Origin: Vibrio sp. ED004
Lineage (GTDB): Bacteria; Pseudomonadota; Gammaproteobacteria; Enterobacterales; Vibrionaceae
Assembly: GCF_023206395.1 (NCBI RefSeq)
Contig: NZ_CP066150.1
Coordinates: 124,001-188,000 of the forward strand
Direction of reading: 5' to 3'
Length of the DNA stretch: 64,000 nt
Under the pieces are notes generated by a model. The model saw nothing but the letters and a program-made list of their open reading frames with translations. It was not told where the DNA came from and ran no database searches. Below, in pieces: positions 1,558-11,965 of the stretch (its first letter is position 1; each line of letters opens with the position of its first letter). The position numbers and the translations under genes are program-made.

Positions 1558-4229
1558 ATGAATGGTCAACGTTCACTGTTAGCAGTGGCAATAGCCCTAG
1601 GGATAGCAGGATGTGGTAGCGACAGTTCGGGTAGCTCCACAACTGATACTGGCGGTTCAACAGCAACTTCAGTGTCTTTAACAGCAAAGGCCGCTGATGG
1701 CTATTTGGTAGGAGCCAATGCGTGTTTGGATCTAAACAGCAATAAAGTTTGTGATAAGGATGAGCCAAGTGCCGTAACGGGTGACGATGGTTCGTTTACG
1801 ATTGATAATCTAACTCAAGAACAACTTGAACAAGGTACTTTGTTGATCGAAGTGGTTGCCGGACAAACCATCGATACCGATAACCCAGGTGTCGTTCTGA
1901 GCAAGAGCTATCGCCTAACTGCGCCACCAAAATCCGTATTTATTAGCCCATTAACGACTCTGATTCAAAATGAAATAGAGAGTGGTTCTTCGTTAGAAGA
2001 AGCTAAAACAGCTATTCAAGAGAAGTTAGGGACAACTCTCGATTTAACGCAAGATTATATCGAAGCCAAAAACAATAACGACTTAGCCGATGCACAAAAA
2101 GCGGCTTTTGAAAACCTACACCGCGTTGCTCAAGTTACCGCTTCAGTCATGGCAGAGAACACGGATGCGTTATCAGAAACAGCAGCGGGCGCCGGTATTT
2201 CTGTCGAAGCACTCACCGTATTGATTAATGAAGAAGTCACTCGAGTCCTCGAGGAAGTCGTAAAAAATATTAAAGCAGCTGGAGATAACTTCAACCCAAG
2301 CGATATTGCTGGCAGTATTAATCGCGATCACATCGCCATTGATGACTCTAATCTCGAAGATAAAATTAAAGAAAATGAGGCAAATAAAGGCTCTAAGCAA
2401 GCCGACCTCGCGAAGCTTATCAAAACAGACGGTATCAATTGGTTTGGCGGCGATAATGACACTGGCAAAGATTTAGTAGTTGCCTATGGAACATTGAAGT
2501 CTGATGCAGATAACTCAGTTACCGATACCAGTTATATTTATGATTACTTTGCTGAGCAATTTGTTGAGTTAGAATATACCCCTGACACAAATAGCATGGT
2601 GTTAGGACAAAACGGTTAGGAAGCGAGCGATGATACCTTAACCAGCATTAAGCCGAACGAAGACGGCAGCTTAACTCTAGAATCTAGAAGCTCGATTTTT
2701 AGTGAAGTTGCTAGCGCCAAGCAATTAGATATCAGTGGGCTCAATGTTCGTTCCATCATGGATCAAACGGATGATGAGAACGTTTGGTCTAACATTATGC
2801 CAGTAGGTTTAAAATTCCCTGACAACACAACCGCATATAAATTGTCTGTAGAAGACATCAACGACAACATTTATACCTTTTACAAAGGTGATTGGTGTGC
2901 CGAGCACGCTATGAAGCGCTCAATAACATGTGTAACGGTATTAGCGCCTTTAAGAATGGCAGCGATACATGGCTTGCCACTTTAGCATCGACCATTGCTG
3001 AAGATGAATCAGACCGTCATGACACAGCGTCTAACAATCATGCAGATTTAATTCCAATGGCAGGCATGGAAAATGCTGAAATATTTGCACAGCTGCTCTC
3101 TAACGGCACCGTAGTTTATTATACAAGAGCATGGAATTTAGATTCTACATTCACCAAATTGTCAGAACTCGGTTCGTGGAAAGATGAATCCGTAAATGGC
3201 GAGGTATTACGTCAAGTTACGATTCCTGAATCTATCCACTCGCAAGCTACATGGTCTAACTACCAAAAAGAAGATAATTCCGCTTACTTGTCTGTAGTCG
3301 AAGGCTTTGTACGTATTACCTACAAGGAAGTTGAAGATGTGGGCAGTGAAGCTTATGTTTTTGATGAAGCGACTAAGCAGTTCATTTTGGATAACGCATT
3401 AACACCACAACCTTTACATCCTCTCAACCTACAGGCTTGTCTTGACTCTCTGCCGGATGCTGAGTTCATTGCGACAGCTAATGACGTCACGGTTTACGAT
3501 GTACAACGCACACCTATGTGGGATCCGGAGGCAATAACACAGAACCTAACTTATGAGTTTACCTACTTGGGTGACACTTTCTCTTGGCTGAATGATGTTA
3601 CGTTAGTCACCGGACTTCCAAGCTGGATTACTGACTTAGAAGATAGCCTAGAAAAAACGCGTATCGATATCAAAGATTCGGAAGGTGCTTTAATGGGGTA
3701 TGAGTATTCATATAGCTCTGAAGATTACTATCTAGGTCAAGAGGGCTTTAACTCTGATGACTCACTAGGCTGGGGTTCGGCTAAGGCTGTGTTGCCACTG
3801 GCAATTGCTGATAATCAAAAGATTATCAATCAAGTGGTAGATTTCGGTACCTCAACCAATGCACCGCTAACATCACAATATGACTATGAGTATGACGAAG
3901 TCAGTGGTGAATTCATTGGGATTGAGTCTCCTGGATTAAGGACTGTATCTGTAGAAACGTCATTAGATGAAATTATCAACGGACGACCTTACTTTCTACC
4001 CACCTTCAACTACCAAGAAACATACTTAGGTAAAGAAGAAGTCACTGTACCTGCGGGTACCTTTGCTGCATGTAAAGTAACAAGTGAGACACAATTCGAA
4101 AATGACGGACCTCGTGACACTCAAACAACCTGGCTCACTAACCGAGGATCTATAAAGTCCATTCGAGAGGAGCAATCTTGGAGCATGTCGATTAATATGG
4201 AAGCAGCTAACTTACCTTCTATTAAATAA
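1558..4229 (+). pseudogene. Large secreted lipoprotein gene broken by a stop and a frameshift
   Basis: A good start (AGGAG spacer ATG at 1558) leads into a signal peptide with lipobox IAGC and a Ser/Thr-rich linker. A short domain around residues 42-75 has a calcium-loop-like segment (DLNSNKVCDKDEP), followed by alpha-helical sequence. The frame meets TAG at 2617-2619 but continues in the same frame to about 2910, then moves to another frame (open from about 2892) and runs to 4229. The three pieces read as one protein of about 890 residues: one stop codon plus a loss of 1 base (or gain of 2) between about 2893 and 2915. The C-terminal 445 residues are Trp/Tyr-rich and beta-like, with no recognised family. 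Either the gene is decaying or both lesions are sequence errors. Confidence 0.75.
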
Positions 4230-4244
4230 TTGATAGGTAATATG

Positions 4245-4277
4245 AACAAGCCAATATCTTATTGGCTTGTTTTTTTC
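4245..4277. terminator. Terminator between convergent lipoprotein pseudogene and manA
   Basis: An 11-bp perfect stem, ACAAGCCAATA / TATTGGCTTGT, is followed by T7 on the plus strand. It ends the lipoprotein transcript and separates it from manA arriving from the other side. Confidence 0.85.
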
Positions 4278-4343
4278 GTATTAGTTCTTAAGCCAACATC
4301 TCCATTCCCAAAAATTGATAGCATTTCAAGCTCATCGCTTCCC

Positions 4344-5556
4344 CTAATTAAACGCTCTGGCCACTCGTCCTTTACTGCTCAATTCATAATGACCAATATA
4401 GGCTGGGATAAATACAGATTGCCCTTTAGTGAGCGTTAAGTGCTCGCCTTTCTGACTCACTAGCGTTAGTTCAGCGTCTATTGCCATTAATATTTCAGCA
4501 CCGCTTGTGATGACTTCTTCTTGCTGAGGGCGATGAAAGATATTGAAATTAAAATCACTGACCGGGATATCATAGCTATCACATTGACCCAGTTTTGAGG
4601 GGGCTAATAATAAGCGTTCGAACGGGATTGGCGTAAACTCTGTACACGCAACTAACTCAGCCACATCAATGTGTTTTGGCGTTAAACCTGCTCGTAGCAC
4701 GTTGTCTGAATTTGCCATGATCTCGAGCCCAGTTCCCTTAATGTAAGCATGCGGAGTGTTCGCATTCAAATACATCGCTTCACCCGGCTTTAGTGTGATC
4801 AAGTTAAGAAGCAGAACACAAAACAAACCGATATCGTTCGGGTACTGGTGGCTAAGCTCAGTAACCAAAGCAAACTCAGCGTGGTCTTGATGAGACTCTG
4901 CGTAAGTCAGAAGTTGCTCTAATGCTTGATTTTTACGCTGGTCATTTAGCGTTAGCAGATCACGGAAGAACGCTTCTAAACCTAGAGAATCAAGGTTGTT
5001 ACCAAACTCTTCAACCAAACCAGCCAGCTCGTTCGAATCCAATTGTCTGAACAAACCCAACATCTCATCGAATTCTCGAAAGCCATTCATCGCTTGATAT
5101 TCAGTGATCGCGTAAACCAATTCAGGTTTGTGGTTAGAGTCTTTGTAATTGCGGTGCCCTGCAGTTAGAGGGATTCTTGCTTGTTCTTCTCTTGCAAAGC
5201 CAACCTCTGCTTGTTGCTTGTTGCTTGTTTGGGTGAACCTGAACAGACAGCGCCTTTTCTGCAGCTAAAATCTTAAACAAGAACGGCAGTTCACCAAACT
5301 CCTGCGCAATATCAGTAGATAAATAAGCCGGTTTATTTTTGTTAATCAGCTCAGAGAGAGGCACCAAATGTTGGTCCAACTTGACCATTGAACAACCTTT
5401 CGGATGCGCTCCCATCCAAACTTCCGCTTGCGGTTCTTGTGACTCATTCTCAAAGCCAAACAGTTCACGTATCGAAGAAATACTCCCCCATGCATAATTT
5501 TGGATGGTGTTTTCCATTGGGAAGAATGAGTGTTCTGAGAAGTGGCTGAGTGACAT
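4344..5556 (-). pseudogene. manA: Mannose-6-phosphate isomerase, frameshifted
   Basis: Class I phosphomannose isomerase (mannose-6-P to fructose-6-P, zinc enzyme). The N-terminal part has QNYAWGS and the EVWMGAHPKG segment, and metal-site motifs LSVQVHPNKQQ follow. The C-terminal part has the NTPHAYIKG motif and ends in a cupin (FIPAYIGHYEL). The two halves are in different frames. The break lies at three perfect copies of GCTTGTT (5209-5229, plus-strand reading); with two copies the frame reads HPNKQQAEVGFAREEQ and joins the second half without a stop. So a single 7-bp duplication inactivates an otherwise intact gene. I take the ATG at 5556 (MSLSHF); a GTG at 5586 is in frame upstream. It has its own UhpA/CRP-type upstream region and sits downstream of uhpC. 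Confidence 0.92.
5209..5229. repeat. Three tandem 7-bp copies (GCTTGTT) inside manA
   Basis: Copies lie at 5209-5215, 5216-5222 and 5223-5229, all perfect. Because 7 is not a multiple of 3, each gain or loss of a copy changes the manA frame. Two copies would restore the family-typical protein sequence. Confidence 0.95.
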
Positions 5557-5662
5557 GGCGTTTTCCGTAGTGAGCCCTTTGAACACAATTCAGAGAGCTG
5601 ATTTCTAATAACGTAAATAATTAGAAAGACTACAGAGCACAGCTAAAACCCACATGAGATGA

Positions 5663-5692
5663 GGTCTTAGACGCAATAGGAAAAATTCTTAG
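5663..5692 (-). promoter_or_regulatory. UhpA-type box upstream of manA
   Basis: In the manA direction the element is a CTAAGA direct repeat 22 bp apart with TTTTTCCTA between. Almost the same 30 bases occur upstream of uhpT (10931-10960). Assignment to UhpA is inferred: uhpT is the classical UhpA target, and the shared element stands at matching distances (107 and 112 bases) upstream of the two starts. Confidence 0.7.
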
Positions 5693-5714
5693 AAACGAGT
5701 GAGAACGATGAAAA

Positions 5715-5732
5715 GCGTGAAAAGAGTCACAT
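5715..5732. promoter_or_regulatory. CRP-type site upstream of manA
   Basis: GTGA-AAAGAG-TCACA matches the CRP consensus TGTGA-N6-TCACA except for one base. It begins 25 bases beyond the UhpA-type box, exactly the spacing seen at uhpT. Confidence 0.7.
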
Positions 5733-5761
5733 TTGAATGCTACGTATAAAAAACGCTGAAG

Positions 5762-5808
5762 ATAAGATAGCTGCACAATAATCAGAGGACTATTAGCAGC
5801 TATCTTAT
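5762..5808 (-). terminator. Hairpin after uhpC
   Basis: A 13-bp perfect stem (ATAAGATAGCTGC / GCAGCTATCTTAT) has a 21-nt loop that can itself pair in part. It lies 16 bases after the uhpC stop. It lacks a long T-tract, so termination efficiency is uncertain, but it separates uhpC from the manA promoter. Confidence 0.55.
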
Positions 5809-5823
5809 TGACGAAGAAACCCC

Positions 5824-7164
5824 TTAAAAACCAGAGCGAGCCTCTGCATTTTTCTGAGGTGATTGAGCTTGTAGGAAAGGCAGTAGCAGCAACCCGATGA
5901 CCGCTGCACAAGTAGAGATGGTAATGAAGAACCCACTCCAACCGTAGGTTTCTAGAACAAGCGCTAATGGGTAACCAGAAAGTGCTGCACCCATGTAAGC
6001 AAACAAGCCAACAAAGCCTGTCGCTGCACCGGCAGAATCTTTGTGCGAGCATTCGGCCGCTGCTATGCCAATAAGCATTTGAGGGCCAAAAACAAAGAAG
6101 CCAACACAAAACAGCCCAGCCGCTTGAAACACAAAGTTGGTTAAAGGCATAAGCCATAAAGCCGATACCGAGAGGAAGATACCAATCGCAAACAGGATGT
6201 TCATCGGGCCACGGTTGCCACCAAACAATCTATCCGATCCCCACCCGGCAACAAGTGAACCAACAAAGCCCCCAATCTCAAATAGAGATAACGCAGCGTT
6301 GGCATTGATCAAGCTATAGTTGTGTTCTTCGGTAAGATATAAGTTACCCCAATCGTTGACTGCCGTTCTGACGATGTAAACCAACACATAGCTAAAGGCG
6401 AGCAACCAAATATACTTGTTGCTGAACACGTAAGTTTTCAAGATCTCTCGATAACTTAACCCTTGCCCATGGCTCTCTTGCGCCAATTCAAGATGGTCAT
6501 TGCGCCACTTCCCGACGGTCGGAAGCCCCATCGTGGTGGGTTTATCACGCAAACGCCAACAAACGATAAGACCAATAAAAACACCAATCACACCCGGCCA
6601 TATAAACCCTGCTCGCCAACTGAATTGAATAGTTAGGTAGCCTACAAGAATAGGAATTAGTGCCCCACCAACGTTGTGTGCTGTATTCCATATGGCCCAG
6701 CGAAAGCCTCTTTCGGAGCGAGAATACCAAGTCGTCAATAGCTTAGAGCACGATGGCCAACCCCAACCTTGGAACCATGCATTCAGTACCCAAAGCGAGA
6801 TAAACGCAACTAGAGAACTCGAAAAGCCAAACGCGATATTGATCAAACCTGTCGCAATTAGGCCAAGCCCCATAAAATAACGCGGGTTTGAGCGATCCGA
6901 TATCGTGCCTGAGATAAATTTCGATAAGCCATAAGAAAGATAAAAGAGCGTGCCAATTAAGCCAATATCGCCTTTGTCCAAACCAAGATCGGTAATCATT
7001 GCAGGCGCGGCATAATTAAAGGTTTTACGAGTGAAATAAAAACCCGCATAGCCGACATACATTCCTATCATGATGTGGAGACGCCAGTAGCGATAACTCT
7101 GATTGACCTCATCATCAGTAAGAGCATAACTCTTGGACGTTGTTGAACGCAGAAATCCAAACAT
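5824..7164 (-). CDS. uhpC: Hexose-phosphate sensor protein UhpC (MFS fold)
   Basis: Twelve-helix major facilitator protein of the organophosphate:phosphate antiporter family, about 446 residues. The N-terminal YAGFYFTRKTFNYAAP segment and the GxxS/WNTAHNVGG region are typical of GlpT/UhpT/UhpC. The gene sits directly after the UhpB-type kinase and overlaps its stop, so it is best read as UhpC, the membrane receptor that senses external glucose-6-phosphate and activates UhpB, rather than a bulk transporter. I prefer the ATG at 7164; a GTG at 7176 that overlaps the uhpB stop (GTGA) is the alternative and would give four more residues. Translation is likely coupled to uhpB. Confidence 0.88.
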   Translation of the reverse strand: MFGFLRSTTSKSYALTDDEVNQSYRYWRLHIMIGMYVGYAGFYFTRKTFNYAAPAMITDLGLDKGDIGLIGTLFYLSYGLSKFISGTISDRSNPRYFMGLGLIATGLINIAFGFSSSLVAFISLWVLNAWFQGWGWPSCSKLLTTWYSRSERGFRWAIWNTAHNVGGALIPILVGYLTIQFSWRAGFIWPGVIGVFIGLIVCWRLRDKPTTMGLPTVGKWRNDHLELAQESHGQGLSYREILKTYVFSNKYIWLLAFSYVLVYIVRTAVNDWGNLYLTEEHNYSLINANAALSLFEIGGFVGSLVAGWGSDRLFGGNRGPMNILFAIGIFLSVSALWLMPLTNFVFQAAGLFCVGFFVFGPQMLIGIAAAECSHKDSAGAATGFVGLFAYMGAALSGYPLALVLETYGWSGFFITISTCAAVIGLLLLPFLQAQSPQKNAEARSGF

Positions 7165-7172
7165 ATTCGTTC

Positions 7173-8669
7173 TCACACTTTAGGTAATGTAACGCTGATA
7201 TTGGTACCCGAAGATGAGCCATTAGCGTTGATTGTCATCTTGCCGCCGAGCGCCTGAACACGCTCCTGCATACCACGAACCCCCATTCCTTTGAGAAGGT
7301 CTTGCGCTGTAAAGCCAACGCCATTGTCTGTGATCTGAAGATAAGCCTGATCATCTAGAATCAGTTCAATTCTAATTTCGCTCGCTTGAGCATATTTATG
7401 AGCATTGTTTAAAGATTCTTGACACAGACGGAAGAGAGTGACCTTAAGCGTGTCACTCAAGCATGAATAATCACCTTGCCAATTTAACTGGATATCAACA
7501 CCATGATCCGAAAACTCCATCTCTCGAATAAGCTGTTCAACGGAGTCTTTAAGATCAAGGTCGTCCAACATTTTAGGTCTTAGTTTTGTTAGCAAGCGTT
7601 TAGTGGTGTCATAAACATTCAAAGACAATGACTCAATCGTACCCGCACAGCGAACGCTCATTTCAGCGGCATCAACGCGCTTAATAATGCTTGCTTGCGT
7701 ACGAATTGCCGTGATGTTTTGGCCAATTTCATCATGCAGTTCACGCGCAATATCACGACGAACCGACTCTTCCGCTGTTACTAGCTGGCGTGACAAGTTT
7801 TGATTTCTAGAGAGCTCATTACGCAATTTCGAGTTGAGATCTTTCTGCTTTTGAACCGCAAGGCCAAGCAATATACCCGTAATAGTTTGAGCAGATAGAG
7901 ACAAGAGTAAGTCGGTAATTTCGAGTTTGGATGTTCCGCTGTGAGCTGCAATCAGCGCAACACTATTTAGCATTGTTGCAAGCAGAGCACCTTGCCATCC
8001 GTAACGAACGGCGAGCAAGATAATAGGGATGGCCATACAGAATGGGGCGAAGCGTCTTAGCTCATCAGGTAAACTGGTTTGTATCAAAATACTGGCCACC
8101 AGCAACACACTGTATAAAGCAATGTGACGGATTTTGAACTCAACGACATTGTTGATTAGGTAAGAGCTCAGTGGCGCCCACTTGTTTTGGAATAGGTAGT
8201 TCCAGACCAGATAACACATCGGCACTAACATCAATCCGCCAGTGATACTCACCAACCACACCATATAAACAGCCGGAACATGAGAACCCACCACGGCAAC
8301 ATTAATGAATGCTGTGACCATGATTAAGCTCGCCATCACTAACAAGTGACGATTCTGGTCACCATAGTAATAACGTTTGGCAATTAACGTGGCAGGGATG
8401 CTCAATCCACTGGCGATGAGTATCGTCAGCCATTGAGGCTCATCAAGTAGAAGAGCTAAAGCGATCGCAAGCCCCCACTCTGCAATATAGATCGCAGGCC
8501 AGTAGTGAGTGCGAGTATGCAGCGTCATTCCCAACCTGAGTGAGAATGGGAAAAGCAGTATGGCTAACTCGGGGTCATTAATGAAATAGAAGGCAATAAC
8601 CCACAAACAGAACCATGCACAGCCAGCCATAAAAACCCCGCACAAAGAGGTGGCTAGATAAGAGCGCAT
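7173..8669 (-). CDS. uhpB: Sensor histidine kinase UhpB
   Basis: 498 residues. The N-terminal half is membrane-embedded, with about eight helices of MASE1 type. The cytoplasmic half holds a HisKA_3 dimerisation helix with the phospho-acceptor His in RDIARELHDEIGQN (near residue 310), then an HATPase with LFRLCQESLNNAHKYA (N box), DNGVGF (G1) and GMGVRGMQERV (G2). Known role: phosphorylates UhpA when UhpC senses hexose phosphate. The start ATG overlaps the uhpA stop by one base (TAATG), giving tight translational coupling. Confidence 0.93.
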   Translation of the reverse strand: MRSYLATSLCGVFMAGCAWFCLWVIAFYFINDPELAILLFPFSLRLGMTLHTRTHYWPAIYIAEWGLAIALALLLDEPQWLTILIASGLSIPATLIAKRYYYGDQNRHLLVMASLIMVTAFINVAVVGSHVPAVYMVWLVSITGGLMLVPMCYLVWNYLFQNKWAPLSSYLINNVVEFKIRHIALYSVLLVASILIQTSLPDELRRFAPFCMAIPIILLAVRYGWQGALLATMLNSVALIAAHSGTSKLEITDLLLSLSAQTITGILLGLAVQKQKDLNSKLRNELSRNQNLSRQLVTAEESVRRDIARELHDEIGQNITAIRTQASIIKRVDAAEMSVRCAGTIESLSLNVYDTTKRLLTKLRPKMLDDLDLKDSVEQLIREMEFSDHGVDIQLNWQGDYSCLSDTLKVTLFRLCQESLNNAHKYAQASEIRIELILDDQAYLQITDNGVGFTAQDLLKGMGVRGMQERVQALGGKMTINANGSSSGTNISVTLPKV

Positions 8670-9277
8670 TAGTACTGATCTTGAGTGAACAATTTAGCTA
8701 ACTCAACGTTGTTCTTAACATTGAGTTTGTCCATCGCATTGGCACGATGTACATGCACCGTTTTATGGCTAACCCCTAGCTCTACGGCGATAGATTTCAC
8801 GTCGAGCCCTGTTGCCAATAGCTGACACACTTCGCTTTCTCTGCGGGTGAGTTGATTTAAAGAGGCTTTATTCTTCATGGGTGTCGCAAGTTTGATAGCA
8901 ATATCTGGCGTGAGATAACAGCCACCATTCGCACTCGTGTGTACGGCTTGGATTAACTCATCAGGGCTACAGCGCTTGCTGAGATAACCTTTGGCTCCTA
9001 ATTCTAATGACTTTTCAACCATCGCGGGAGAGTCATGAACGCTTAACATGATACTGGCAATGCCTGATGGGATCTCTTCCAATAAGCTCAGGCCACTTTC
9101 ATCTTGCATTGAAATATCTAAGATCACGACATCAGGGTGACAACTTGGCAGTCCAAGGCGCGCTTCTGCCGCAGAGTTAAATTCACCCACGACCGTAATA
9201 TCAGCCTCAAGACTGAGTAATTGAGCAAAGCCAGATCGAACAATGACGTGGTCATCAACTAACGCAACATTAATCAT
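8669..9277 (-). CDS. uhpA: Response regulator UhpA (NarL/LuxR type)
   Basis: 202 residues: an N-terminal receiver with acidic pair VDDH, phosphorylated Asp54 in VVILDISM and Lys in KGYLSKR, then a LuxR-type helix-turn-helix ([14 protein letters not shown]...[16 protein letters not shown]). Known role: activates uhpT. I use the ATG giving [11 protein letters not shown]; a TTG four codons upstream is possible. The gene follows a terminator-like hairpin (9311-9330), so part of its transcription may be read-through from uhpT. It is intact, although both of its apparent targets in this window are broken. Confidence 0.93.
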
Positions 9278-9300
9278 GATATTAACCAAAATTAAGAGTA

Positions 9301-9330
9301 AGAAAGAAAAATAGCCCCGACAGGAGCTAT
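9301..9330 (-). terminator. Terminator-like hairpin between uhpT and uhpA
   Basis: Read on the minus strand, ATAGCTCC-TGTC-GGGGCTAT (one G-T pair) is followed by TTTTCTTTCT. It sits about 25-30 bases before uhpA, so it would separate strong uhpT transcription from uhpABC unless read through. Confidence 0.65.
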
Positions 9331-9386
9331 ATAAAATTTAGTTTATTGGTAAAGATGATACTGAATCGAACTCACGATTGGTATGA

Positions 9387-9420
9387 TCTCACGTGCTTTA
9401 AACCAATAAAGCACGTGAGA
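9387..9420. terminator. 14-bp inverted repeat just after the uhpT stop
   Basis: TCTCACGTGCTTTA / TAAAGCACGTGAGA with a 6-nt loop begins five bases after the uhpT stop codon. It lacks a T-tract on the uhpT strand. It may stabilise the 3' end or act with the hairpin at 9311-9330. Confidence 0.5.
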
Positions 9421-9424
9421 CTCG

Positions 9425-10819
9425 CTACGCGTTTTGAGCCGCTAAGTGCATTTTCTTAGCGTGGCGAATCTTCTTCTCTTCCGCTACCGCTACAAATAGC
9501 AGTAACACGATACAAATCGCAGCTGAGGTATCGAGTGCAGCGAACGTTCCTTTCCAACCCGTTAAGCCGAAAATAGGCGTTCCGTCTGCAATCATACCTA
9601 GGCCTAGTTTGGCAAAGCTGTCACCAATTAAGTAAGCAAATGTGCCTTTCACACCATCCGCAACGCTGATTGCTTTCTTAGGCACGAAACCTACCGCAGC
9701 AACACCAATCAGCAGCTGAGGACCAAACACTAGGAAGCCAAGCACGAATAGTGATGCGAGGTACATAAATTCACTCGTTGCATGCTGGTAAAACTCTAGA
9801 GAAACAATGATCAGAGCTAGCGATACACAAGCAACCAAAGCACGGCGTCCGTTAGCAAGGTCTGACAGATAACCTCACATTAGCGTGCCGACTAGTGCGC
9901 CAACTTCAAACAGCGTGAAGCCTGAAATAGCCGTTTCTTTTGATAGACCTAGCTCTTGATACGCATAAACGGTAGACCATTGATCGATACCGATACGAAC
10001 AATGTATAAGAAGATATTCGCGAAGCAGAGCAACCAGATAACTTTGTTTTTCAGAATGTATTCAACAAAGATCTCTTTCTTGGTCATTTGGTTCTCTTCA
10101 GCGGCTGTATCTTCTTCGCTGACTTCTTCACCAAACAATTCTTCAACCGTACCCAAGCCGTAGGCTTCTGGAGAGTCATTACCAAAGCGCATACCAATAA
10201 AGCCAACCACAATCGCGATGATCGATGGGAACACGAACATACCGATCACGTTACCGTCAAATAGGTAGTTTGCACCGAACAGCGCAACGCCAGCAGCACC
10301 TGCACCACCTACATTATGCGACATATTCCAAAGGCCTAAATATGAGCCACGCTTGTTACGAGGTGTCCATTTGGTGATGGTCGAGTAACTTGATGGCCCA
10401 CCGGTACTTTGGAAGAAACCACTTAACGCATAGAAGGCAACCATCATGAATAAGCTAGCGCTACCGCCGCCCATACTGAAGCTGAAGCCCAACATGGCAA
10501 TACCAGAAAGAACAAGCATGAATGGCAGGAACTGCTTAGTGTTTTTACCATCGGCATAATAGGAAACGACGGTTTTACCTATACCGTAAGTGATAGAGAA
10601 ACCCAGACCAATAAGACCTAGATCCGTCATCGATAACCCATAAGTAGAAATCATGTCGTTTTGCGCGACATTGAAGTTCTTACGAATCAGATACATGGTT
10701 AGATAACCAATGAACACGACTAGGTAAGATTGTAGGAATGGTTTAAACCACATTTTTCTTCTAGTTTCGACCGGAAGATCCAGCGTCGGTTTTCGAACCT
10801 GGTCTAGGAACTTTAACAT
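9425..10819 (-). pseudogene. uhpT: Hexose-phosphate antiporter UhpT with a nonsense codon
   Basis: Organophosphate:phosphate antiporter importing glucose-6-P and related sugars; also the known uptake route for fosfomycin in enterics. Full length would be 464 residues, the usual size. Family marks are [41 protein letters not shown] and the C-terminal [19 protein letters not shown]. The frame is uninterrupted except for TGA at 9875-9877, in the context [19 protein letters not shown]. coli UhpT has Trp here ([14 protein letters not shown]), so one G-to-A change (TGG to TGA) explains it. The truncated product would lack the last third (about four helices). First gene of the block, with its own UhpA/CRP-type promoter. 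Confidence 0.93.
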
Positions 10820-10930
10820 TGTGAACTCTCTTATTATTTATGAGGTCTGCACGGCATAATTGCGGCCATGCATTGTTTGTTATTTGACAGGAAAATAATA
10901 AGGAGTCTAAAAATCGACCGCATGAGAGAG

Positions 10931-10960
10931 GGTCTTAGAATAACTAGGAAAAATTCTTAG
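10931..10960 (-). promoter_or_regulatory. UhpA-type box upstream of uhpT
   Basis: On the uhpT strand, CTAAGA appears twice, 22 bp apart, around TTTTTCCTAG. The element matches the one before manA in nearly all conserved positions and lies 112 bases upstream of the start. UhpA binding is inferred from family knowledge. Confidence 0.72.
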
Positions 10961-10982
10961 TTCAGAATTGGGAGTCAAGAAA

Positions 10983-11000
10983 GCGTGAACAGCATCACTT
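10983..11000. promoter_or_regulatory. CRP-type site upstream of uhpT
   Basis: GTGA-ACAGCA-TCAC (close to TGTGA-N6-TCACA) starts 25 bases beyond the UhpA-type box. E. coli uhpT likewise has CRP bound upstream of UhpA. Confidence 0.65.
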
Positions 11001-11185
11001 TGTTTACGGTGTGTTATGGATTGATATTACGATAACAAAATTATCGACTGTCAACGCTAACGGACCAATTTAAACACTCTCGCTGAAACACTTCGCAACA
11101 AATAAAACACTGTTCATAATTTTCTTCTGACAATGCCTTGATAAAATTTTTGCTCTTTATTTATACATCTTTTAGGGCCGAACTT

Positions 11186-11965
11186 ATGAACTCGTTGACT
11201 AAAGCATCACTGACTGCTGCTATTTCTCTTCCTCTACTTGCAGGGTGTGTAACGCCTGGTGAAGATGATCCAAACGCAAGCACTAAACAAGGTGCAGTGG
11301 GTGGTGCTCTGTTGGGTTTAACATTGGGCGCGCTAACAGGTGAGGCGGATTTAGCTGTCCAAGGGGCAGTCGTTGGTGGTTTGGCTGGAGGTGTTGCAGG
11401 GGCAAGTAACGACATTCAGAACAACCGTGAAAACATCCGTCATGACAGCCGTAACGAAGCCATTGCACAAACTGGTGGCACACAAGCAGTAAGCCCAGCG
11501 AGCACTGAAACAACTCAGCAGAACTGGCAAGAGCTTAATAACTTCATTGGCGAGTGGAACGTTACTATTCGTAATCATGTTGATACCAACAGCAATATCG
11601 GCAGCCTTCAAGCAACGGGCAATCTAGCGAGTATCAGCCAAGCCAACATAAATATTGGAAACCAACAGGGCGTTGAACTCTCTGCACAGTTTTCTTATAC
11701 GGCAGAGCAAGGTTACCAACTGGATGTCATGAATGACGCGACTGATGTGACGGTTAACTTCGCAGGTGAACATCAACCACAAGCGAATCGTTACAACTTC
11801 TACCCAACCAACATTCAAGACATCATTTACCAAGACGTGAACAGTGCTGATGTTCGCCTAGAACTGGCGATGGTGAGTGAGAAGCTATGGATTATCGACA
11901 GCTACGCATACATCGATGGTTCTGAGAAGAAGCTACAATCTATCCGCTTCAATAAAGCGAGCTAA
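11186..11965 (+). CDS. Glycine-zipper lipoprotein
   Basis: 259 residues from the ATG at 11186, which has a TAGGG spacer upstream; an in-frame ATG at 11138 would put 16 residues before the signal peptide and is unlikely. The signal peptide ends in LLAGC (lipobox). Residues about 38-75 form a Gly-rich, Ala-rich double helix (GAVGGALLGLTLGAL...GAVVGGLAGGVAG), a glycine-zipper pattern that may insert in a membrane. The C-terminal 130 residues are beta-rich (FIGEWNVTIRN...), lipocalin-like in feel but not recognised. Likely envelope protein of unknown role, monocistronic. Confidence 0.8.
   Translation: MNSLTKASLTAAISLPLLAGCVTPGEDDPNASTKQGAVGGALLGLTLGALTGEADLAVQGAVVGGLAGGVAGASNDIQNNRENIRHDSRNEAIAQTGGTQAVSPASTETTQQNWQELNNFIGEWNVTIRNHVDTNSNIGSLQATGNLASISQANINIGNQQGVELSAQFSYTAEQGYQLDVMNDATDVTVNFAGEHQPQANRYNFYPTNIQDIIYQDVNSADVRLELAMVSEKLWIIDSYAYIDGSEKKLQSIRFNKAS

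Follow-up and report, generated by a model that had tools for sequence, protein, structure and literature searches.

The uhp Locus and the State of Its Genes

In the window, that is, the whole 64-kb stretch of DNA analysed here, five genes are found on the minus strand in the order uhpT, uhpA, uhpB, uhpC, and manA. The three regulatory genes, coding for the response regulator UhpA (8669..9277; NF007685, 282.3 bits, cut-off 258), the histidine kinase UhpB (7173..8669; NF008649, 744 bits, cut-off 408), and the glucose-6-phosphate receptor UhpC (5824..7176; NF008661, 803 bits, cut-off 564), are open, while manA and uhpT, the predicted targets of UhpA, both look interrupted. In the case of uhpT, the frame of the 5' piece (9875..10819) is closed early by an in-frame stop lying between the two pieces (9839–9874), and the 3' piece (9425..9838) is 97–99% identical to 16 relatives of the Splendidus group; in the case of manA, the 5' piece (5134..5586, with an ATG at 5554–5556) carries a frameshift at about 5209–5225, in a CTTGTTG-like short tandem repeat, and is followed by a 3' piece (4344..5120). 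Since both genes are interrupted in the window, this strain may not use the system; intact copies of manA and uhpT exist in relatives. In another genome of the Splendidus group (L014), manA is also broken.

The assignment of manA rests on TIGR00218 (class I mannose-6-phosphate isomerase, cut-off 116.2), which is passed by the 3' piece (150.3 bits), by an intact relative (314.7), and by the Psychromonas protein (289.7), the 5' piece alone scoring 111.1, below the cut-off; the cut-off of 571 of the mannose-6-phosphate isomerase equivalog NF011710 is missed both by the intact relative (447.1) and by Psychromonas (427.6). Apart from the two pieces at the uhp locus, the genome of the window encodes two further ManA copies; in three other genomes (G137, G060, and G279), no ManA copy besides the linked one was found at E 1e-20, so that the linked enzyme may serve general mannose use there too. 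No Rfam family was found in window positions 4200–11200.

Twin Promoter Elements of manA and uhpT

Upstream of both manA and uhpT, the same layout is read on the minus strand: GTGA-N6-TCAC, 24 nucleotides, CTAAGAATTTTTCCTA-N6-CTAAGA, 5 nucleotides, and TCTCATG. The twin CTAAGA box with a GTGA-N6-TCAC site had been pointed out before both genes in the initial annotation and is indeed present at both; the spacer between TCAC and CTAAGA is of 24 bases at both promoters, not of the 25 given there, and the sites had been placed correctly, with outer limits one or two bases off. At manA, the predicted CRP site, GTGACTCTTTTCAC (5717–5730), and the predicted UhpA box, CTAAGAATTTTTCCTATTGCGTCTAAGA (5665–5692), both read directly, are followed by TCTCATG (5653–5659), the downstream part of the predicted UhpA-site array, and by a candidate −10 hexamer, TGTAGT (5629..5634), picked by eye against uhpT promoters. 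At uhpT, the predicted CRP site, GTGATGCTGTTCAC (10985–10998), whose position relative to the box is that of E. coli K-12, precedes the predicted UhpA box, CTAAGAATTTTTCCTAGTTATTCTAAGA (10933–10960; read directly and by weight matrix), TCTCATG (10921–10927), and a candidate −10 hexamer, TATTAT (10895..10900), also chosen by eye, whose offset from the box equals that of the E. coli hexamer TACAAT. All these features lie on the minus strand. The similarity said to extend past the box holds for TCTCA, which is part of the core and is found also in E. coli and Psychromonas; it fails for TTTTAG, which relatives change and which is therefore outside the conserved core. The most fitting interpretation of the box is an array of putative UhpA sites that has a CRP site upstream.

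The two promoters of the window are alike in sites and spacing, and their 28-base boxes differ only in the six middle bases of the spacer; in contrast, the non-motif positions of the uhpT and manA promoters are only 41% identical (mean within genomes), on which ground a recent duplication of the uhpT promoter was rejected.

Between uhpC and manA, a terminator-like hairpin is predicted on the minus strand (5762..5808; −25.7 kcal/mol, z −7.2), none of 200 shuffles giving one as good; its T tail is weak, and the terminator scan gave no call. A sigma-70 scan of 5500–5900 gave no −35/−10 promoter at manA; the missing consensus fits an activator-dependent promoter and, taken together with the hairpin after uhpC, a separate one for manA.

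Comparison with the E. coli uhpT Promoter

The UhpA of the window is 65% identical to that of E. coli K-12, and the stretch KTVHVHRAN, within the DNA-binding part of the protein, is nearly identical in the two. The E. coli K-12 uhpT promoter reads GTGATGCATCTCAC, 24 nucleotides, CTAAGAAATTTTCCAGGTTTTGCCTGGA, 5 nucleotides, and TCTCAGG; it thus shares with the promoters described above the succession of CRP site, N24, CTAAGA-type box, N5, and TCTCA, as well as a −10-like hexamer located 30–32 nucleotides after the box (hexamers chosen by eye). Differences are to be found in the second repeat, which is CCTGGA in K-12 and not CTAAGA; in the gene order, which is uhpABC-uhpT with no manA within the 9.5 kb fetched; and in the gene that is driven, an importer there and a sugar-use enzyme in the case of manA. 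In E. coli, the CRP site of uhpT is reported at −103, the UhpA site following 30 bp downstream, and UhpA binding is reported between the CRP site and the promoter (PMC5352689); a review distinguishes two UhpA sites in this promoter, a strong one upstream and a weak one downstream (PMC4790336). Counted from the candidate −10 hexamers, and hence from predicted starts, the CRP centre falls at −103.5 for uhpT of the window and at −101.5 for manA.

Specificity of the Shared Element

The shared manA/uhpT element is real and far beyond chance. Allowing up to 3 mismatches, the box has exactly two matches in the 5.83-Mb genome of the window, namely the manA and uhpT sites, while a reversed control pattern gave 6 matches over 148 genomes; the single 3-mismatch box matches of three genomes with no UhpA match (G009, G044, and G103) are at chance level, in agreement with this control. 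When the box is extended by TCTCA (hereafter, the extended motif), no control match is left either in 329 genomes of the family or in 394 of the order.

Concordant results came from a weight matrix whose training set was 67 uhpT promoters of lineages other than the Splendidus/Aliivibrio group, with no manA promoter included; agreement with the box and CRP consensus had served to choose the training sites, so that the letters of the promoters of this group did not enter the matrix, while the consensus did. Over both strands of the 64-kb window it scored 79.8 bits at uhpT and 64.7 at manA (box together with CRP part), the next best position reaching −8.9. A box-only matrix, run over 4.03 million positions of the loci up to L125, gave scores of at least 20 bits nowhere but in front of uhpT and manA and, on the reverse strand, at uhpT boxes.

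Conservation before manA across Relatives

The annotation set comprised 91 loci from 90 genomes, in which manA was looked for with the intact ManA of locus L006; its presence rests on this search and on matches to the C-terminal piece. A uhp-linked manA preceded by the box and the CRP site at the same spacing is found in 31 genomes: 27 of the Splendidus group (window included), V. methylphosphonaticus, and three of Aliivibrio, UhpA identity being 97–100% in the 27 and 95% in V. methylphosphonaticus. The letters of the CRP site are complete (8/8) in 30 of these 31 and number 7/8 in the remaining one. Conservation of the box in relatives, on which the initial annotation had made its proposal depend, was indeed found: all 17 Splendidus-group genomes chosen by UhpA alone have both box and CRP site before manA (the other 14 of the 31, the 3 Aliivibrio among them, had been chosen for their two boxes and so give no independent test), and the box precedes manA in 11 of 11 named records chosen by UhpA, some of which overlap with the genome set. 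These records are V. splendidus (three strains), V. tasmaniensis, V. lentus, V. crassostreae, two further Vibrio, V. methylphosphonaticus, A. sifiae, and Aliivibrio sp. 1S175.

In a comparison of 23 distinct manA promoters (30 loci), variation touches 5 of the 37 motif positions and 33 of the 46 remaining ones, and 0 of 20,000 permutations were as extreme; the manA promoters of the window and of Aliivibrio are 97–100% identical over the motif and 54–57% over the rest.

Co-Occurrence with UhpA

In a search of 148 Vibrio genomes for both UhpA (at least 60% identity) and the motif, the extended motif is present in 38 of the 42 genomes with UhpA and in none of the 106 others. At wider range, it occurs in 100 of 329 genomes of the family and in 36 of 394 of the order; the genes following the box were checked in 78 of the 100 motif-bearing family genomes, the other 22 being of Photobacterium type with one match each, and in 9 of the 26 motif-bearing genomes outside the family. 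No wider UhpA regulon emerged in the checked genomes, where every box precedes uhpT or manA save in G161, G154, G582, and G243, the last two being cut by the end of a contig or stretch. Three genomes (G184, G524, and G533) have a boxed uhpT and no uhpA within the fetched stretch, which alone was searched. Of the two remaining exceptions, both Aliivibrio, G161 has lost UhpA and has an insertion element after its uhpT-type box, its manA box being intact, and G154, which retains neither uhp nor the greater part of manA and has no UhpA, keeps a decaying box; the box can therefore outlive the system for some time.

Such remnants, like the broken state of both manA and uhpT in the window, would be expected if the sites before manA were a functionless vestige of a duplicated uhpT promoter. 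This explanation is nevertheless judged very improbable, because the motif positions hardly vary while their neighbours do, across species up to 30% apart in ManA, because the 41% agreement outside the motif is not that of a fresh copy, and because a long ManA frame of 401–411 codons is open in 15 of the 17 genomes read first. As sites of the NarL family resemble each other, the box might be bound by another regulator of the LuxR/NarL type, acting on uhpT and manA in place of UhpA. Against this second explanation, to which we give equally little credence, stand the distribution of the extended motif among the 148 Vibrio genomes, the degree of identity between the two UhpA proteins with their nearly identical KTVHVHRAN stretch, and a layout which is that of E. 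coli uhpT, where UhpA binding is reported (PMC5352689).

The Leader of manA

Some further features were observed between the promoter and the manA frame. The leader of the uhp-linked manA (window 5556–5600, minus strand) holds a hairpin just before a ribosome-binding-like AAAGGG/GGAGGG; the arms of the hairpin change together between lineages, and the leader, read also in L021–L032, L053, L054, and L126, was not seen before the unlinked manA copies compared. A few bases past the AAAGGG/GGAGGG of the linked manA stands A[CT]G: among 28 box-bearing loci read, some of which share a genome, it was found in 26, as ACG in 21 and as ATG in 5, and among 17 loci of the Harveyi type, some again sharing a genome, it was found in 16, as ACG in 12 and as ATG in 4. 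This ACG could be a rare start codon; by eye, it shares the reading frame of ManA in the Splendidus group and in Aliivibrio, while in the Harveyi type it is out of that frame and opens a short upstream one. In the Splendidus group, a palindrome, TCTAATTATTTACGTTATTAGA (window 5601–5622, minus strand), lies near the predicted transcription start of manA and might act as an operator or form a hairpin in the RNA; V. methylphosphonaticus has TCTGAT...ATCAGA in its place, a paired change.

Linked and Unlinked manA Genes without the Box

In genomes of the Harveyi type, in which manA also follows uhpC, the box is found before manA in 0 of 18 (11 chosen by UhpA, 7 as single-box genomes), so that control of manA by UhpA is not general; the gap between the two genes is of only about 103–124 bp. 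Among the remaining Vibrio and Photobacterium genomes covered (UhpA 61–78%), no manA was found next to uhp, and two Aliivibrio genomes (G149 and G151) have uhp with no linked manA.

The short gap of the Harveyi type, with manA starting so close to uhpC and with no box, lends some weight to the possibility that manA is expressed mainly by read-through from uhpABC, or else from a constitutive promoter, the UhpA sites adding little. Where the box is present, the locus does not favour such an arrangement: read-through would have to pass the strong hairpin between uhpC and manA in the window, and in A. sifiae three genes on the opposite strand part uhpC from manA, the box staying beside manA, 3.4 kb from uhpC; a constitutive promoter, in turn, finds no sigma-70 consensus in 5500–5900. 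Expression by either route is therefore considered unlikely, if less so than the two explanations discussed above, and a separate promoter of manA under UhpA is preferred.

Other arrangements were noted in passing. In Actinobacillus minor (L119, 12449–13579), a distant manA homologue (34%) lies directly after uhpC, so that manA is linked to uhp in yet another family, and no box was found; in two genomes of one genus (loci L141 and L205), manA stands upstream of uhpT and then uhpABC, uhpT alone being preceded by a box, in G237, whereas in G243 manA is followed by a box, and the stretch is cut before uhpT.

A Second ManA Lineage

A box before manA is also found in Psychromonas aquimarina and in two genomes of a genus of another family, where the gene order is manA, uhpT, uhpA, uhpB, uhpC. 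The box scores 34–38 bits and lies 109–160 nucleotides before the manA match, with no CRP site at the uhpT spacing. In this second lineage the box is present in 3 of 4 genomes, being decayed in P. ossibalaenae; the two genomes outside Psychromonas had been chosen for their two boxes.

In a phylogeny of 33 ManA proteins, the linked enzymes of the Splendidus group, of Aliivibrio, and of the Harveyi type fall into one clade (100/99), which stands apart from the 13 unlinked copies included, and the linked enzymes of the Psychromonas type fall into another (100/99). Tree tests on 31 rows, from which the outgroup and one long row were left out, rejected a tree holding together the box-bearing ManA (p 0.0003) and weakly rejected one holding together all linked ManA of the three groups (p 0.023); as the groups had already been seen in the tree and some branches are long, these p values err somewhat on the favourable side. 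The simplest reading is that manA was brought under UhpA control on two occasions, and it is moderately probable that one took place with CRP, in the Splendidus group and Aliivibrio, and the other without it, in Psychromonas and the genus of another family. The form shared by Vibrio and Aliivibrio may go back to gene exchange between them.

Proposed Mechanism

We hold it highly probable that manA carries CRP and UhpA sites of the uhpT type and that, as predicted from them, phosphorylated UhpA would, with the help of CRP, activate manA as well as uhpT; manA is very likely a direct target of UhpA in the lineages of the Splendidus/Aliivibrio and Psychromonas types. The sites, their spacing and conservation, the co-occurrence with UhpA in the 148 genomes, and the separate ManA lineage are observed; from them we infer the binding of UhpA and CRP at manA, its induction, and its physiological role. 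According to this proposal, UhpC and UhpB would sense external glucose-6-phosphate, a property known in enterobacteria and assumed here; phosphorylated UhpA would fill the array CTAAGA / CTAAGA / TCTCATG at both promoters and recruit RNA polymerase to a manA promoter lacking a good −35; CRP would raise the expression of both genes when preferred sugars are short, and the hairpin after uhpC would insulate manA from transcription of uhpABC. The linked ManA, belonging to its separate uhp-linked lineage, would turn the mannose-6-phosphate imported by UhpT into fructose-6-phosphate, feeding it into glycolysis and avoiding its build-up, which is harmful in manA mutants. In the V. splendidus group, UhpA would, in short, likely switch on the uptake and the use of sugar phosphates together.

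In enterobacteria, UhpC and UhpB are reported to sense external glucose-6-phosphate, the inducer of UhpC, and to phosphorylate UhpA (PMC10352792, PMC11077982), while UhpT is described as an importer of glucose-, fructose-, and mannose-6-phosphate (PMC10352792). The reported inducer being external glucose-6-phosphate, ManA would be co-induced with the importer and not called by mannose-6-phosphate; in this sense, the suggestion that imported mannose-6-phosphate is isomerised on demand is likely by half only, for the co-induction and not for mannose-6-phosphate itself as the trigger. A comparable coupling is described for the HptRS system of Staphylococcus aureus, which controls uhpT according to glucose-6-phosphate, together with further genes such as pflB, dha1, and adh; it is nonetheless another regulator system, and the wider targets named in the available text of that study do not include manA (PMC6291074). 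In a table of a stringent-response study of V. splendidus (PMC13303043), a manA (the copy being unspecified) goes up and uhpT goes down in the same comparison, which, if the uhp-linked copy is meant, speaks against simple co-regulation.

Significance for the UhpA Regulon

Among two-component regulators, UhpA is a textbook example, known above all for a single target promoter. In the open-licence literature, no description of manA as a UhpA target was found; what is new is a second predicted promoter of the known UhpA-CRP type, located before a new kind of gene. On balance, it seems somewhat more probable than its contrary that in marine bacteria UhpA, known as the activator of one importer gene, was converted on two or more independent occasions, through manA, into a controller of both transport and catabolism, and this apparent repeated recruitment of manA would represent a clean case of regulon growth. 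A second conserved target would allow two natural UhpA promoters to be compared in one cell, and a comparison of the manA and uhpT promoters would test what the CRP site adds. For the bacteria concerned, such a second target suggests that phosphorylated hexoses, mannose-6-phosphate included, are treated as food worth a dedicated, induced enzyme.
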